From contig JANQQK010000008.1 of NCBI GenBank assembly GCA_028289375.1, forward strand, positions 1 through 64,000: DNA of 64,000 bases. Direction: 5' to 3'. This document shows, piece by piece, positions 1-53,555 of this stretch (position 1 is its first letter; each line of letters starts with the position of its first letter). The notes below the pieces were generated by a model, which was given only the letters and a program-made list of their open reading frames with translations, made no database searches and was not told the origin of the DNA. A program made the translations under genes and the position numbers. The DNA comes from Phycisphaerae bacterium. Lineage in GTDB: Bacteria; Planctomycetota; Phycisphaerae; UBA1845.

Positions 1-87
1 CTGCTGATTCGTCACGAGCGGCACGTCGAAATGTACCAAGCCTTTATCCACGTCGCCTGCCTCATGATCACGCTCAACAAGTTATGA
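1..87 (+). mobile_element. C-terminal end of an IS4/IS5-type DDE transposase (edge-truncated)
   Basis: Frame 1 reads LLIRHERHVEMYQAFIHVACLMITLNKL* (stop 85-87), resembling the C-terminus of IS5-group transposases (R(L/I)xxRxER....(Y/H)xAF). Confidence 0.6.
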
Positions 88-98
88 AACCGCTTCTA

Positions 99-155
99 GA
101 GCCTATCCCAAAATCCCTTTGAGCAGGATGATGGTGCATCCGAGGTGCAGGAAGC
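99..155 (-). mobile_element. Remnant of a second IS transposase C-terminus in opposite orientation, with possible terminal sequence GAGCCTATCCCAAAA
   Basis: Reverse strand of ~107-155 reads FLHLGCTIILLKGILG*, similar to the FIHVACLMITLNKL end of the + strand copy; GAGCCTATCCC at 100-110 looks like an IS end. Confidence 0.5.
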
Positions 156-990
156 TTTGGAACAGGCGCGTTGGACAAACTTGGCAACGGACTTGAGGTT
201 GATTGAGCGCGAAGTGGCGAAGTGCCAAGCTGCGTTACTGATCATTGATCCAATCACCGCATACTTGGGTTGTGTTGACGATCATAGGAACGCCAACATC
301 CGTTCAGTCCTCGGCCCGCTGTCAGCGCTCGCGGAGCGGCAGAATTTGGCGATCCTTGCGGTCTCTCATTTCCGCAAAAGCCAAGCGGCCAACGCTGCGC
401 AACAAGTGGTAGGATCAATTGGCTACACGGCTGCGGCTCGCATGGTGTGGGCGATTGGCATGGATCCAACTGACGACACAGGATGCAGGCGAATCATGGT
501 GCCGGCCAAGAATAACATCATTGAGACGCCGACAGGCCTGGCATTCACGATGGAGAACAGTTCAGTCCGGTGGTCGAATGTGACTGTCACTACCACAGCT
601 GACCAAATGGTGGCAGCGGCCGCCGATGCGGGGACAGTGGGACATTCAGCACTTGAAGATGCAAAGGAGTTTTTGCGGGTCGAATTGGCCCACGGCCCTC
701 GGCCTGTCAAGGAACTCGTAGCGGCAGCCGTCGATGCGCAGATCTCAGAAAGGACATAGAATCGAGCAAAATCTGCCATGGCAGTGAAATCTCGAAAGGT
801 GACGGATCACCATGGAAGTCGCTCGGTTTGGCAACTGCCGACCGAGACTTCTCAAGATGGCCAAGAGTGCCAAAATTCCCAGATCGGAAGTCTTGGCCAC
901 CTTGGCCAACATTGCGGCCCTCCGCAACATCACAACGGAATCGCGGGTACCTTGACCGATCCGCGACATGACGAATGGGCAAAGCAGTGA
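145..990 (+). pseudogene. RepA-like / AAA_25 RecA-fold ATPase, 5'-truncated and interrupted by an in-frame TAG
   Basis: 145-759 encodes NLATDLR..LLIIDPITAYLG...HFRKSQAANAAQQVVGSIGYTAAARMVW; the same frame continues after TAG (757-759) as NRAKSAMAVKSRKVTDHHGSRSVWQLP to 990, the expected C-terminal tail of this family. Confidence 0.75.
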
Positions 991-47486: not shown

Positions 47487-49166
47487 TCAGACATCCATAT
47501 CCGCCCACTTCCGCGACATCCGCCCGAAGATGAACAACGCAATCGCCGACACAACACCAACCGCAATAAACGGGTACCACACGTTGTGCGGCTGATACTG
47601 GTCCCACAGCAGTTGTGTCGCCTGAACCGCATCCATGCCCATGCGTTCCTGCAGCGCCACGAACGATTCTGAACGACTCACGCCCGCAGCCTCCGCAAGC
47701 GTCTTCATCTCGCCATCCCAGCTCTTGTTCAGATGCTCGGCAATGTACTTCTGCGCAAGAATGGCCTTCTCTCCGAACTTCCCATACGCCCAGCCAGCCA
47801 GGACAGCCCCCACTCCCTGCCCCATCGCGATCGGCAGATTCACATAACCCAGATAGAGTCCCTTCTTGCCCTCCGGTGCGATCAGCGCGAAATACTCATT
47901 CTTCTTCGGACCCGTCAACATTTCGCCAAACGAGAAGAACATCAGGCCCAAAGCAAACAGAAACGCCGACGTCGTCCAACCCGCCACAAACACGCCCATC
48001 GTCGCGCAGATCATGCCACCCAGCATGCACGTCAGCCGCCGCACATTCGCGACCGCATGCCCCACGATCGAAACGAACAACATCACCATGAACGCATTGA
48101 TATTCAGCAAGTGCTCCTGCGAAATCTGCACCCCACGATCCGTCGTCTCCACGAACCGATCACGAATCCACGTCGGGAAGTTGTCCAGAATCGCAACCAC
48201 CCTGCTGCTGTCCACCCAGTCCACGATGAAGTTCGGATGCAGATCCCAGATCTGATACATCATCATCCAGAAGCCGGCGAGAATGACGATGAGCGCAGGC
48301 AAACGAAGCTGCCATTGAAATTGCCCGCCCTCCAGCCACGTCATGAACACCAAGCCGACCGCAAAGACAAGCCAATAACCCCAATGACCATCCACCCACG
48401 GACCCCAGTGACAAACGAGCGCCCCGGCACTCACCAAGGCGCCAACCGCGAACGCCGCGGGACGAATCCGCCCCCCAACGAACCAGTAAGGCCAAATGTT
48501 CGCAATCGTGACGCTGAACACCTTCACGAAACTGTGCGACGTATCCGACCCCGATGAATAATCCTTGTACGTGAACAGCATCAGGTAATTCAGCGATACG
48601 ATCCCCGCACACCCATAAAAGACCCAAGGCCAACTCCACCCCTTCAACGTATGCGCCAAGAACGGACCGATGAACGCCCCGATGTTCACCAACTGATAGA
48701 ACAGCGACCACCCCAGCGACGAATTCTCCTTGTGCAGCGTTTGTGCAATCGTGCCTTGAATGCCCGGCTTGAAGATGGCCGTTCCCGCAGCCAGCGTCAG
48801 TGCACCGATGAAGAATCCGGCGTACGTCGTCTGCGTCGCCATCAGCACGTACCCGATGATCTTGATCGTGATCGACACGAAGATCGTCAGCTTGTACCCA
48901 TACCGATCCGCGTAACCACCGGTGAAGATCGGAAGCAGCGACTGCATCACCGCCCAGCCGGCGTAAATCGATCCCTTCTGTGCCGCCGAGAAGTGCAACC
49001 CACCAGGCTCATCCGCCTGCATGATGTAAATCGGAACCACCACGCGCATCCCGTAGTACGCCAAACGCTCCCACATCTCCATGATGTTGAGCATCCAGAA
49101 CGCGACGGGAAAACTTCCCAATCCCGAGGAATTGGAATTTTGCGGAACGCTCGATGGTTCACTCAT
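47487..49166 (-). CDS. POT/PTR2-family MFS peptide transporter
   Basis: PVAFWMLNIMEMWERLAYYGMRVVVPIYIM...GGYADRYGYKLTIFVSI...FFSFGEMLTGPKKNEYFALIAPEGKKGLYLGYVNLP. Confidence 0.92.
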   Translation of the reverse strand: MSEPSSVPQNSNSSGLGSFPVAFWMLNIMEMWERLAYYGMRVVVPIYIMQADEPGGLHFSAAQKGSIYAGWAVMQSLLPIFTGGYADRYGYKLTIFVSITIKIIGYVLMATQTTYAGFFIGALTLAAGTAIFKPGIQGTIAQTLHKENSSLGWSLFYQLVNIGAFIGPFLAHTLKGWSWPWVFYGCAGIVSLNYLMLFTYKDYSSGSDTSHSFVKVFSVTIANIWPYWFVGGRIRPAAFAVGALVSAGALVCHWGPWVDGHWGYWLVFAVGLVFMTWLEGGQFQWQLRLPALIVILAGFWMMMYQIWDLHPNFIVDWVDSSRVVAILDNFPTWIRDRFVETTDRGVQISQEHLLNINAFMVMLFVSIVGHAVANVRRLTCMLGGMICATMGVFVAGWTTSAFLFALGLMFFSFGEMLTGPKKNEYFALIAPEGKKGLYLGYVNLPIAMGQGVGAVLAGWAYGKFGEKAILAQKYIAEHLNKSWDGEMKTLAEAAGVSRSESFVALQERMGMDAVQATQLLWDQYQPHNVWYPFIAVGVVSAIALFIFGRMSRKWADMDV

Positions 49167-49392
49167 CAGACAGGCTCGTCCTTTCGTGACGATGGCTCGC
49201 GGGTTCAACCAAACGCGCCCCGCCAAACCATCCTCCGATTCGTTCGGATCGTTCATCACGGGACGTCGCGGGCCGAGTCTAGCAACGACCGTTCAGTTTT
49301 CCAAGGCAGCCGAAGATTCGATCGCCCATCCCGAGCGCATCGCTTATCCTCACGGCTGGTAAACGCGCAAACGCAGACAGCGAGCCGACATC

Positions 49393-51756
49393 ATGCCCAA
49401 CATCATCACCCGCTACACGAAATGGCTGCACACGCAATGGCCAGCCGGCACCGTCGAAAAACTCCCCGAAGTGCGCGAAGACGGATCAACCAACGTCCCC
49501 GGCATCTACGTCACCGGCGACCTCACCGGCATCCCACTGCTCAAGTTCTCAGCAGACACCGGCGCCCGCGCCATTCAGACAATCGTGAAAGACAAGGACT
49601 TCCAGAACCTCCGACAGCAATCCCATGACGACACCAAAGACGTCGTCATCATCGGCGGCGGCGTCTCCGGCATGGCCGCCGCCCTCGAAGCCAGCAAGAA
49701 CAACCTCGACTTCGTCCTTCTCGAAGCCAGCGAACCCTTCTCCACCATCGTCAACTTTCCCAAAGCCAAACCCATCTTCACCTACCCGACCGACATGACC
49801 CCCGCCGGCGACCTCCAGTTCACCGCCGAAGTCAAGGAACCCCTCGTCGACGAACTCCGTGAGCAAACTCTCGACAAGGGCATCGAACCGGTCAACGCCC
49901 GCGCCGAAAGCATCAAACGCAAAGGCAAGCTCTTCGAAGTCGTCATCGCAAACGGCGAAAATATCCTCACCCGCCGCGTCATCGTCGCCATAGGCCGATC
50001 GGGCAACTTCCGCAAACTCGGCGTCCCCGGCGAAGACAAGGACAAAGTCTACAACCGACTCCACGACCCCAAGGATTTCTGCGGACAGAATGTCCTCGTC
50101 GTCGGCGGTGGCGACAGCGCCCTCGAATCCGCCATCGCCCTCGCCCAATGCGGATGCAACGTCACCCTCTCCTACCGCAAACCCGAATTCTCACGCCCAA
50201 AACCCGAGAACGTCGAACGCCTACAGGCACTGCAGGCAGACCCGATGGCCGATGTCGAAATCGACGAACCATCTTCCGAACGCGTCACCACCGCTTCGGG
50301 CACCTTCCTCGGCGAACACCGCAAACCCGGTTCCATCACCCTCGCCCTGCCATCCAACGTCAAACAGATCGACGACGACACTGTCACGCTCATCGGCGGC
50401 GACAAAGCCGAACAGACCATCCCCAACAACGCCGTCTTCGCCATGATCGGCCGCGAGCCGCCCCTCGATTTCTTCCGCCGCAGCGGCATCAACATCAGCG
50501 GCGAATGGCGAACCAGCACCAAGCTCTCCTTCGCCGCCTTCATGGCCTTCTGCGTCTTCCTCTACCACTGGAAGAAGGACATCGGCCTGCCAATCAACAA
50601 GTTCTTCGTCAACCGCGGATGGTTCCCCTACAACGTCTCATCATGGTTCGATCGCCTCGGCGAAGCTGCCAGCGACCCAACCACCCTGCTCTACACGCTC
50701 AAGACATCGATGGCCCAGCCCGGCTTCTACTACACCCTCGCCTACTGCGCCTGCGTCGTCATCTTCGGCATCAAACGCATCAAGCGACGCAAGACCCCAT
50801 ACGTCAAGCTACAAACCATCACCCTCATGATCATCCAGTGCCTGCCCCTCTTCATCCTCCCCGAAATCGTCCTGCCCTACGCCGGACGAAATGGCGCCTT
50901 CGCCGAGGGCACGACACTCGCCCCCATCGCCGACCAACTCTTCGAACGCGACGACGACGTTGGCCACGAACGCGCCTACTGGCGCGCATACGGCCTCATC
51001 CTCGCCTGGCCACTCTTCGTCTTCAACGTCTTCACAGATGCACCGATGTGGGGCTGGCTCATCATCAGCCTCATACAAACCTTCATCCTCATACCCACGA
51101 TGATCTACTTCTGGGGCAAAGGTGCGTACTGCGGATGGGTCTGCTCCTGCGGCGCATTGGCCGAAACCCTCGGCGACGCACACCGCCACAAAATGCCCCA
51201 CGGCCCCTTCTACAACCGACTCAACATGGTCGGCCAAGCCGTCCTCGTCTTCGCCGGCATCCTCTTCATCCTCCGCGTCCTCGGCTGGATCATGCCAGGC
51301 TCCGTCTTCCACAACCTCTTCGATCAACTCTTCAGCAAGATCCCGTTCCTCAACTACAAGTGGTCCGTCGACCTGCTGCTCGCCGGCATCCTCGGCGTCG
51401 GCTGCTACTTCTGGTTCTCAGGCCGCGTCTGGTGCCGCTTCGCCTGCCCACTCGCAGCACTCATGCACATCTACGCCCGCTTCTCACGCTTCCGCATCCT
51501 CGCAGATAAGAAAAAGTGCATCTCCTGCAACGTCTGCACCTCCGTCTGCCACCAGGGCATCGACATCATGAGCTTCGCCAACAAGGGACTGCCCATGGAA
51601 GACCCCGAATGCGTCCGATGCAGCGCCTGCGTGCAGTCATGCCCCACCGGCGTCCTCGAATTCGGACAGATCAACCGACAGACCGGACAGGTCATCAGCC
51701 GCGACAGCCTCGTCGCATCACTCGTTCGCGAACGCGAAGGAGCAAACCCATCATGA
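49393..51756 (+). CDS. Fusion of pyridine-nucleotide flavoprotein to NapH/CcoG-like membrane 4Fe-4S electron-transfer module
   Basis: VVIIGGGVSGMAAALEASKNNLDFVLLEA, VLVVGGGDSALESAIALAQCGCNVTLSYR; C-terminal TMs, WCRFACPLAALMHIY, CISCNVCTSVCHQGIDI, CVRCSACVQSCPTGVLEF. Confidence 0.92.
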   Translation: MPNIITRYTKWLHTQWPAGTVEKLPEVREDGSTNVPGIYVTGDLTGIPLLKFSADTGARAIQTIVKDKDFQNLRQQSHDDTKDVVIIGGGVSGMAAALEASKNNLDFVLLEASEPFSTIVNFPKAKPIFTYPTDMTPAGDLQFTAEVKEPLVDELREQTLDKGIEPVNARAESIKRKGKLFEVVIANGENILTRRVIVAIGRSGNFRKLGVPGEDKDKVYNRLHDPKDFCGQNVLVVGGGDSALESAIALAQCGCNVTLSYRKPEFSRPKPENVERLQALQADPMADVEIDEPSSERVTTASGTFLGEHRKPGSITLALPSNVKQIDDDTVTLIGGDKAEQTIPNNAVFAMIGREPPLDFFRRSGINISGEWRTSTKLSFAAFMAFCVFLYHWKKDIGLPINKFFVNRGWFPYNVSSWFDRLGEAASDPTTLLYTLKTSMAQPGFYYTLAYCACVVIFGIKRIKRRKTPYVKLQTITLMIIQCLPLFILPEIVLPYAGRNGAFAEGTTLAPIADQLFERDDDVGHERAYWRAYGLILAWPLFVFNVFTDAPMWGWLIISLIQTFILIPTMIYFWGKGAYCGWVCSCGALAETLGDAHRHKMPHGPFYNRLNMVGQAVLVFAGILFILRVLGWIMPGSVFHNLFDQLFSKIPFLNYKWSVDLLLAGILGVGCYFWFSGRVWCRFACPLAALMHIYARFSRFRILADKKKCISCNVCTSVCHQGIDIMSFANKGLPMEDPECVRCSACVQSCPTGVLEFGQINRQTGQVISRDSLVASLVREREGANPS

Positions 51757-52481
51757 AACCAGCCGCAACGACCACCACAGCCGCCCTGATCATCGGCACA
51801 ACGATCAACACCGCCCACGCCGTCGACCACAGCCAACTCGACGCCATCCTCCGCGCCAACGTCCGCAACGAACGCGTCGACTACGCCAACATCAGAGACA
51901 ACCACAAGTCGACATTGTCCGCATACCTCGACACGCTCGCCAAGGTCGACCCCGCAGACCTCCCCCGCAACGAACAACTCGCCTATTACATCAACCTCTA
52001 CAACGCCACCGTCATCCACACCATCCTCGACCGCTACAATCCCGGCTACTCCGTCTCCGAAGACAACTTCAAAATCTTCGACGAAAAACATTGCCGCACC
52101 GCCACCGCCACCGCCACCTTCAGCCTCAATCACCTCGAAAACAAAATCATCCGCCCCACCTTTAAAGACCCCCGCATCCACGCCGCCCTCAACTGCGCCG
52201 CCGCCTCCTGCCCACCGATTCACAATCGCGCATTCACCAGCGCAACGCTAGACGCCACCCTAACGCACCTCATGCGAGCGTTCGTCAACGACGCGTCGCG
52301 AAACACGATCGACATGAAGTCACGCACGCTCACACTCAGCAAAATCTTCGAATGGTACGCCGTCGATTTCGGCGACAAGAAAGGCCTCGCCAAGTACGTC
52401 AACCAATACACCGACAAGGACGTCAGCAGTTACACCGTCACGTTTCAGGATTATTCCTGGAAACTCAACGACACAATGTAA
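51753..52481 (+). CDS. DUF547 family exported protein (copy 1)
   Basis: LDAILRANVRNERVDYANIRDNHKSTLSAYLDTLAKVDPADLPRNEQLAYYINLYNATVIHTIL...DPRIHAALNCAAASCPPI. Confidence 0.92.
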   Translation: MKPAATTTTAALIIGTTINTAHAVDHSQLDAILRANVRNERVDYANIRDNHKSTLSAYLDTLAKVDPADLPRNEQLAYYINLYNATVIHTILDRYNPGYSVSEDNFKIFDEKHCRTATATATFSLNHLENKIIRPTFKDPRIHAALNCAAASCPPIHNRAFTSATLDATLTHLMRAFVNDASRNTIDMKSRTLTLSKIFEWYAVDFGDKKGLAKYVNQYTDKDVSSYTVTFQDYSWKLNDTM

Positions 52482-52556
52482 CAAACACGTTTTCACTTTC
52501 GTCGCGACGGCAAATCCAATATCATCGTTCTGTCGCAGCCAAAGGAGACGTGGCCC

Positions 52557-53555
52557 ATGCGTATCCCACATCTCATCCGTTCAGCCTGCCTGCTGACAGC
52601 GCTTCCCCTACAGATTGCATTCGCCGATCCCCCGACCGTCGACCACGCTGCGTTCGACAAAATCCTCAAGGAAAACGTCCACGGCGACCGCGTCGACTAC
52701 CTCAACATCCGCGCCAACCACTGGCGCGAGTTCTACGACTACTTCGATCACATCCGCAGCATTGACCCCAGATCCCTCGAACGCGACGAACGCCTCGCCC
52801 TTTACATCAACCTGTACAACGCCAGCATCATCAGAACGGTCATGGAGGAGTATTTCGAGGGATACCATTTCCATACTGACTACAGAATGGTTCCGCGCGC
52901 AAGAGAGATCGAACCGGCTGAATCAGAGCGGCGGATGTACACACAGCCGCGGTTCTACCCGGGCTTCATCACGCAGGACTCCATGTCCACGTTCCCGGAA
53001 TTCCGCACCCTCATCACCCTCGGCGAATTCATCGAACCCCGCGCCCACGCCGCCCTCTGCGACGCCAACCGCACATCACCGAGGCTGCGCAACCACGCAT
53101 ACACCGGCGACAAGATCCACGACCAACTCAACGACGCCATGCGCGACTTCCTCAACGATCCCAAACGCAACCGCATCGACACCCACATAGGCCAAGCCCG
53201 CCTCAACCCCCTCTTCAAGAAGCACAAACGCCAGTTCGGCTCAGACGAGGACTTCCGCTACTTCATCAGCCACTTCTCCGGCATCAATGTTTCCGTCCAC
53301 AACATCACCTACCTGAAAGCAGACGACCGCCTCAACTTCATCCCGCCCCGCGACGGCGAATGGATCACAGCAACCCGTCAGGTCGAATACTTCCAAAAAC
53401 CCGGCGGCACCGCGTCGATCTGGGAAATCCCACGTTTCACTGTGCTGTTCGTCCTCGGCCGCGACGGCAACCTGATCCAGGTCTATAACCCCCGTTCGAA
53501 CGACGCCGTCTGGATCACGGCCGAGCACACCCGACCGACAAAATGGACGCCATAA
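52557..53555 (+). CDS. DUF547 family exported protein (copy 2)
   Basis: FDKILKENVHGDRVDYLNIRANHWREFYDYFDHIRSIDPRSLERDERLALYINLYNASIIRTVM...EPRAHAALCDANRTSPRLRN. Confidence 0.88.
   Translation: MRIPHLIRSACLLTALPLQIAFADPPTVDHAAFDKILKENVHGDRVDYLNIRANHWREFYDYFDHIRSIDPRSLERDERLALYINLYNASIIRTVMEEYFEGYHFHTDYRMVPRAREIEPAESERRMYTQPRFYPGFITQDSMSTFPEFRTLITLGEFIEPRAHAALCDANRTSPRLRNHAYTGDKIHDQLNDAMRDFLNDPKRNRIDTHIGQARLNPLFKKHKRQFGSDEDFRYFISHFSGINVSVHNITYLKADDRLNFIPPRDGEWITATRQVEYFQKPGGTASIWEIPRFTVLFVLGRDGNLIQVYNPRSNDAVWITAEHTRPTKWTP

Follow-up and report, generated by a model that had tools for sequence, protein, structure and literature searches.

The flavoprotein domain encoded at positions 49393 to 51756 (+ strand) of the window—the whole stretch of 64,000 nucleotides from a Phycisphaerae bacterium that was analyzed here—appears to be naturally circularly permuted, a conclusion supported by shuffle-controlled profile comparisons, a sister group of canonical order and two AlphaFold models. 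In the encoded protein (787 amino acids, ATG start), the permuted domain is followed by a NapH-like membrane module and a 2x[4Fe-4S] ferredoxin. Both halves are of already-known kinds, and it is the permuted arrangement that appears to be new. Few folds in biology are as widely used as the TrxR/GR-type FAD/NAD(P) fold, which, to our knowledge, is otherwise always built in one order. Within the open-licence PMC papers, we found no description of a circularly permuted TrxR-type flavoprotein or of its modular use.

The initial annotation had placed the motif that closes the FAD domain at the N-terminus of the protein, with the GxGxxG motif following only afterwards, and this order is borne out by our analysis. 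The relocated GD motif GIYVTGDLTG (residues 37–46; 49501–49530, + strand, as for all features of this gene), which usually closes the FAD domain at its C-terminal end, has an invariant G42 with Asp or Glu after it, and the Pfam flavoprotein matches start only at residues 82–85. A link of only ~45 residues joins it to the GxGxxG FAD motif GGGVSG (residues 88–93; 49654–49671), identified by Pfam and by its invariant G88, G90 and G93. Further along the chain, Pfam and conservation mark the NAD(P) motif GGGDSA (residues 238–243; 50104–50121), and the conserved residues Y261-R-K...R268-x-K270 (50173–50202) form a probable NADP-phosphate site, assigned by analogy with TrxR. The Pfam matches of the whole protein comprised Pyr_redox_3 (residues 85–368), Pyr_redox_2 (82–368), Pyr_redox (233–269), Fer4_5 and several two-cluster ferredoxin models; when the first 86 amino acids were submitted alone, the sole match was the C-terminal end of Pyr_redox_2 (profile positions 258–278 of 291, E 0.053). 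An in-frame TAA at 49360–49362, 11 codons upstream of the ATG, restricts any N-terminal extension to at most 10 codons. Since this stop is present and a divergent MFS gene (47487–49259, excluded from the unit) occupies the upstream DNA, there is no hidden upstream FAD domain, and both a truncation of such a domain and a hidden frameshift were ruled out.

To what extent this order is conserved was examined in a homologue scan with one genome per GTDB species, which returned 139 relatives. The best 80 of these 139 loci were retained and, together with the window protein and two paralogues of ~30% identity encoded near two of the homologues, make up the aligned set (n = 83). Going by their record titles, the 80 loci belong to Planctomycetota, Verrucomicrobia, Latescibacterota, Myxococcales, Gemmatimonadetes, Acidobacteriota, Desulfobacterota, Krumholzibacteriota, Chlorobi, Sumerlaeia and others, and all 80 align from residues 1–9 on, essentially over their full length. 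The permuted order is kept in the 82 homologues, across at least 10 phyla as named by these titles—which are fallible, as illustrated by an ‘Alphaproteobacteria’ record (L010) with match coordinates identical to those of a genome placed in the window's own family. Residues G37, G42, G46, P48, L49, K51, G88, G90 and G93 are invariant in 83/83 proteins, and position 43 is Asp in 81 of the 83 and Glu in the other two. Moreover, the stretch between G353, close to where the NAD domain ends, and W393 of the first transmembrane helix amounts to exactly 41 residues in all 83 proteins, leaving no room for a second GD segment; the earlier statement that the domain ends without one agrees with this constant spacing, and no second C-terminal GD motif occurs among the aligned proteins. 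Aligning homologues, proposed at the outset as a check of the motif order, revealed the permuted order throughout the 83 proteins. These showed no additional FAD domain upstream and no normal C-terminal GD motif, the two observations named beforehand as speaking against a permutation. The two paralogues (L009:929–3280 and L046:1613–3904), each located just upstream of the main homologue and ~30% identical, lack R262/R268, which suggests another nucleotide preference.

The circular permutation itself, proposed in the initial annotation, was assessed against a canonical profile combining three proteins of the YpdA type with three cyclic-nucleotide-type reductases of canonical order. In its native order, the window family scored 404.1 over 261 columns; with columns 20–77 shifted behind column 372, the score rose to 452.7 over 308 columns, and the alignment now extended into the canonical C-terminal region. 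As controls, the moved columns were shuffled 100 times, with a mean score of 403.5 and a maximum of 411.6, and the relocation of 29 other segments of the same protein reached at most 410.3. The N-terminal segment alone, including the GD motif, aligned to positions 278–323 of the canonical profile (E 5.6e-9). An earlier hhalign comparison against TrxB alone had shown a modest gain, from 158.7 to 167.5. The GD segments are also alike by eye: in the canonical L124, SNVPGLFLVGALIGYPLIKQAMNQGHEVIEHI is located behind the NAD domain, and the corresponding segments of the permuted L126, TNVPGIYAAGELAGTPLVKLGLNAGHDLVTRL, and of the window protein, TNVPGIYVTGDLTGIPLLKFSADTGARAIQTI, both stand before GxGxxG. 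With the final strand and helix of the FAD domain relocated to the N-terminus, the NAD(P) domain can run at its end directly into the membrane module.

The check by AlphaFold that had been suggested for the N-terminal strand led to a concordant picture, with strand and helix at the expected chain position in two models. For the window protein, AlphaFold2 with a 75-sequence alignment yielded a mean pLDDT of 89.4 and a pTM of 0.84; according to DSSP, the relocated strand (residues 38–42) and helix (residues 50–66; together 49504–49590) precede the Rossmann strand at residues 82–87, and the flavoprotein part is followed by long helices and a ferredoxin-like end. A separate model of a relative in which the ferredoxin comes first likewise positioned the GD strand and helix before the Rossmann strand (pLDDT 88.7). 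In profile searches with this ferredoxin-first family, PDB chains covered the query from the Rossmann start only and left their own C-terminal segment over, the exceptions being ferredoxin-only and AhpF-linker matches. The best PDB matches of the window model were Bdr/YpdA structures (Foldseek E 1e-17; VIA Z 21.3, rmsd 4.2 over 267), values to be read with the understanding that sequential structure aligners are blind to permutation and that the VIA model range, 79..723, extends beyond residue 372 into the ferredoxin. Judging from the fold, the sequence and the confidence of this cofactor-free model, we infer that the N-terminal strand closes the FAD site.

By sequence as well as by fold, Bdr/YpdA (bacillithiol disulfide reductase; TIGR04018; PDB 7a7b and 7a76) is the nearest solved structure and has the FAD and NAD(P) Rossmann motifs in common with the window protein. 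However, Bdr/YpdA is soluble and follows the canonical order FAD(N)–NAD(P)–FAD(C, GD motif), whereas the window protein is permuted and membrane-fused, and the GPCG cysteine of Bdr/YpdA gives way to GVSG in the window protein, with Ser, Ala or Gly at position 92 in 83/83 proteins. The scores against the curated families fall short of their cut-offs, with 129.8 versus 339.9 bits for TIGR04018 and 84.7 versus 343.45 bits for TIGR01292 (low-Mr thioredoxin reductase), and the protein is far under the curated AhpF cut-off too. The domain had been described as TrxB-like: the GD segment is indeed of the TrxR/YpdA type, but a strictly TrxB-like assignment has to be abandoned, the nearest relatives being Bdr/YpdA and the redox-active CxxC being absent. 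The lack of CxxC is a trait of the TrxR-like ferredoxin/flavodoxin-NADP+ reductases (FNRs), which, like TIGR01292 members, have a similar plan of FAD and NAD(P) domains; unlike all of these, the window protein has its GD motif at the N-terminus and a fused membrane Fe-S module. More generally, the GxGxxG, GGGDSA-type and GD motifs of the TrxR/GR-type two-dinucleotide-binding fold are all present and nearly invariant, in permuted order and with a structural match, and FAD binding and NAD(P)H oxidation, as expected of this fold, are putative functions here.

Three proteins of canonical order, L111, L124 and L155, which combine cyclic-nucleotide-type domains with ferredoxin motifs, form a close canonical sister group in the phylogenetic tree. 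They have a nearly identical NVPG...G...LIK...N.G segment and, as the window protein, Fe-S motifs, but carry this segment behind the NAD(P) domain and are devoid of a NapH module. In their GD motif, Ala replaces Asp. A natural permutation in a flavin-carrying electron-transfer protein has been described in the circularly permuted FMN-bind1 (PMC11334425), which differs from the domain of the window protein in being unrelated, extracytosolic and a carrier of covalent FMN.

In the second half of the protein, the structural model and the hydropathy profile, whose peaks match, predict six transmembrane helices (residues 374–394, 443–465, 469–499, 553–574, 612–633 and 655–672; 50512–51408). Positive charges near the membrane are biased to the side that loops 2 and 4 share with the C-terminal domain, and all cofactors should therefore face the cytoplasm; the models and hydropathy support this predicted fold, with both termini cytoplasmic. 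Conservation at or above 99% (n = 83) singles out 13 cysteines, all in this membrane and ferredoxin half and none in the flavin half. They are distributed over a first membrane-face motif, CGWVCSCG (C580, C584 and C586; 51130–51153; CX3CXC), a second one, CRFACP (C681 and C685; 51433–51450; CX3CP), both invariant in 83/83, and two ferredoxin [4Fe-4S] motifs recognized by Pfam and conservation (C709, C712, C715 and C719, 51517–51549; C740, C743, C746 and C750, 51610–51642). As judged from these motifs, eight of the 13 residues would bind two [4Fe-4S] clusters, with the other five grouped at the membrane face. The original description of a NapH-like membrane domain with two 4Fe-4S motifs is accordingly correct in kind but too narrow, as CX3CXC and CX3CP are conserved in addition. 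Neither a quinone site nor a periplasmic redox center was apparent in the protein.

Membrane helices with two membrane-face Cys motifs are a feature of NapH/MauN (TIGR02163), NosR and PceC (RdhC), and NapH and NosR also have the C-terminal 2x[4Fe-4S] ferredoxin of the window protein. The comparable Cys motifs of NapH and NosR are needed for function, with their chemistry unsettled (PMC5928378). The window protein nonetheless stands apart: the module shared among NapH-type proteins has four transmembrane helices as opposed to the six predicted here, the first NapH motif is CX3CP as opposed to CX3CXCG without Pro (83/83; the second motif is CX3CP), and, unlike in NapH, NosR and PceC, the flavin enters via a permuted TrxR-like domain. 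Its TIGR02163 score (61.6) lies below the cut-off of 213.05 bits. Among the 25 Pfam families listed of the 32 matched, none was a covalent FMN-binding domain of the NosR/PceC type.

On this basis, we consider it fairly likely that the protein is a membrane NAD(P)H dehydrogenase made of one chain, in which a permuted TrxR/YpdA-type flavin domain is coupled to a NapH-like six-helix module. NAD(P)H, more likely NADPH, would reduce the FAD; the electrons would then pass singly to the C-terminal ferredoxin with its two [4Fe-4S] clusters and from there, via the membrane-face Cys center, to the quinone pool or to a partner in the membrane. The preference for NADPH is suggested by the basic residues R262, R268 and K270, in analogy to TrxR, and the acceptor is probably a quinone, in line with the proposal that NapH membrane segments exchange electrons with the quinol pool (PMC5928378). 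Thiol chemistry of the TrxR or Bdr type is unlikely because the flavin half has no conserved cysteine.

The genomic neighborhood brings in a different possibility, namely that the flavin and Fe-S centers serve periplasmic or cell-envelope modification and donate electrons to a DUF547 protein or a glycan-modifying enzyme instead of a quinone. DUF547 is the most recurrent neighbor, lying no more than three genes away in about 16 of 81 loci, and two of the three DUF547 genes found in the window genome adjoin the flavoprotein gene in tandem (51753–53555). The first of them (51753–52481, + strand) is probably co-translated with the flavoprotein, since its start overlaps the stop codon (ATGA); the second, assigned by Pfam, follows at 52557–53555 (+ strand). 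Glycosyltransferases recur as well (GT2 in 9 loci and GT87 in 10), ArsS occurs in two, and none of these recurrent neighbors points to a respiratory chain. In Pseudoalteromonas pPBSW1 (L196, 5203–13823), a window-type homologue lies within a run of glycosyltransferases (GT2 and GT87), a run that also includes types resembling TIGR04282 and TIGR04283 (‘arsenosugar’) below the cut-off. Pseudoalteromonas sp. Bsw20308 has a homologue with the accession WP_007378779.1. We regard such a role in envelope modification as unlikely, given that DUF547 and glycosyltransferase neighbors are missing from most loci, that we know of no redox activity of DUF547—the literature we found on it is almost all plant work—and that a periplasmic redox center is not apparent in the protein.

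The direction of electron flow could also be the reverse, with the membrane module of the same permuted enzyme oxidizing quinol and the flavin domain reducing NAD(P)+ or a cytoplasmic ferredoxin. TrxR-like FNRs operate reversibly between NADPH and ferredoxin, which counts for this direction. NapH, proposed to run opposite to the dehydrogenase suggested here, is described as a quinol dehydrogenase (PMC5928378). Reducing NAD(P)+ with menaquinol or ubiquinol is, however, uphill without an energy source, and no ion-pump signature was recognized, albeit outside any dedicated search, such that we deem the reverse reaction improbable. A domain-swapped dimer, with the N-terminal GD segment of one subunit filling in the FAD site of the next, is in keeping with the homodimeric nature of TrxR-like reductases and with the C-terminal loop of FNRs that covers the FAD of the adjacent subunit (PMC8564101), but it is unlikely in light of a monomer model that is confident by itself and a short link between the GD motif and GxGxxG that fits closure within the chain.

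Beyond the type found in the window, we observed further permuted NapH-type subfamilies (L089, L126 and L153; L095; L154, L156 and L157) and a second, large architecture in which an N-terminal 2x[4Fe-4S] ferredoxin precedes the permuted domain (L112, L113, L123, L135 and more than 40 others). At an E-value of 1e-20, a ferredoxin-first query had a match in 76/294 genomes drawn from the window's phylum and in 20/57 from a myxobacterial phylum, and some of the weaker matches may be canonical proteins. In other relatives, the permuted domain stands behind a ferredoxin and six CxxCH haem-type motifs (L161:1–2826, with an FHA match) or four such motifs (L152:424–2772, with a cytochrome c3 match), or a ferredoxin and the permuted reductase are continued by a C-terminal membrane part (L182:1363–3660, with a weak DUF4405 match, L186 and L187). 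Additionally, a homologue on plasmid pEMTOL02 of Emticicia oligotrophica (L197, 7644–8966; 34% identity over residues 24–372) is placed between a nearby CcsA gene and two directly following cytochrome c3-family genes. Electron transfer is indicated by these neighbors and by the way in which the relatives join the permuted domain to ferredoxin, CxxCH and membrane parts.

When a maximum-likelihood tree was built from the core domain with the GD segment excluded, one branch parted 49 permuted from 6 canonical proteins (support 97/87). The tree has no trusted root and omits TrxB and the long-branched L095; a first tree including TrxB was unfit for rooting (branch lengths of 4.9 for TrxB and 3.57 for L095) and was rebuilt without both. 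This topology is compatible with a single permutation event. A broader proposal, which we put forward tentatively and at somewhat less than even chances, is that a widespread permuted TrxR-type superfamily of one origin provides an exchangeable module for NAD(P)H input to different membrane, Fe-S or cytochrome parts, the window type being an NAD(P)H:quinone oxidoreductase made of one chain and without kinship to complex I, NDH-2 or Nqr. A permutation conserved across at least 10 phyla would represent a wiring solution, whereby the end of the NAD(P) domain is freed for direct fusion to the membrane, and possibly a new entry point for NAD(P)H electrons into membranes. Public records name a homologue ‘NAD(P)-binding domain-containing protein’, a generic label that would hide an electron-transfer family as abundant as the above matches in the window's phylum suggest. 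Finally, a regular expression for the GD motif also matched by the end of the NAD domain in L121, L126, L154 and L191, probably by chance.
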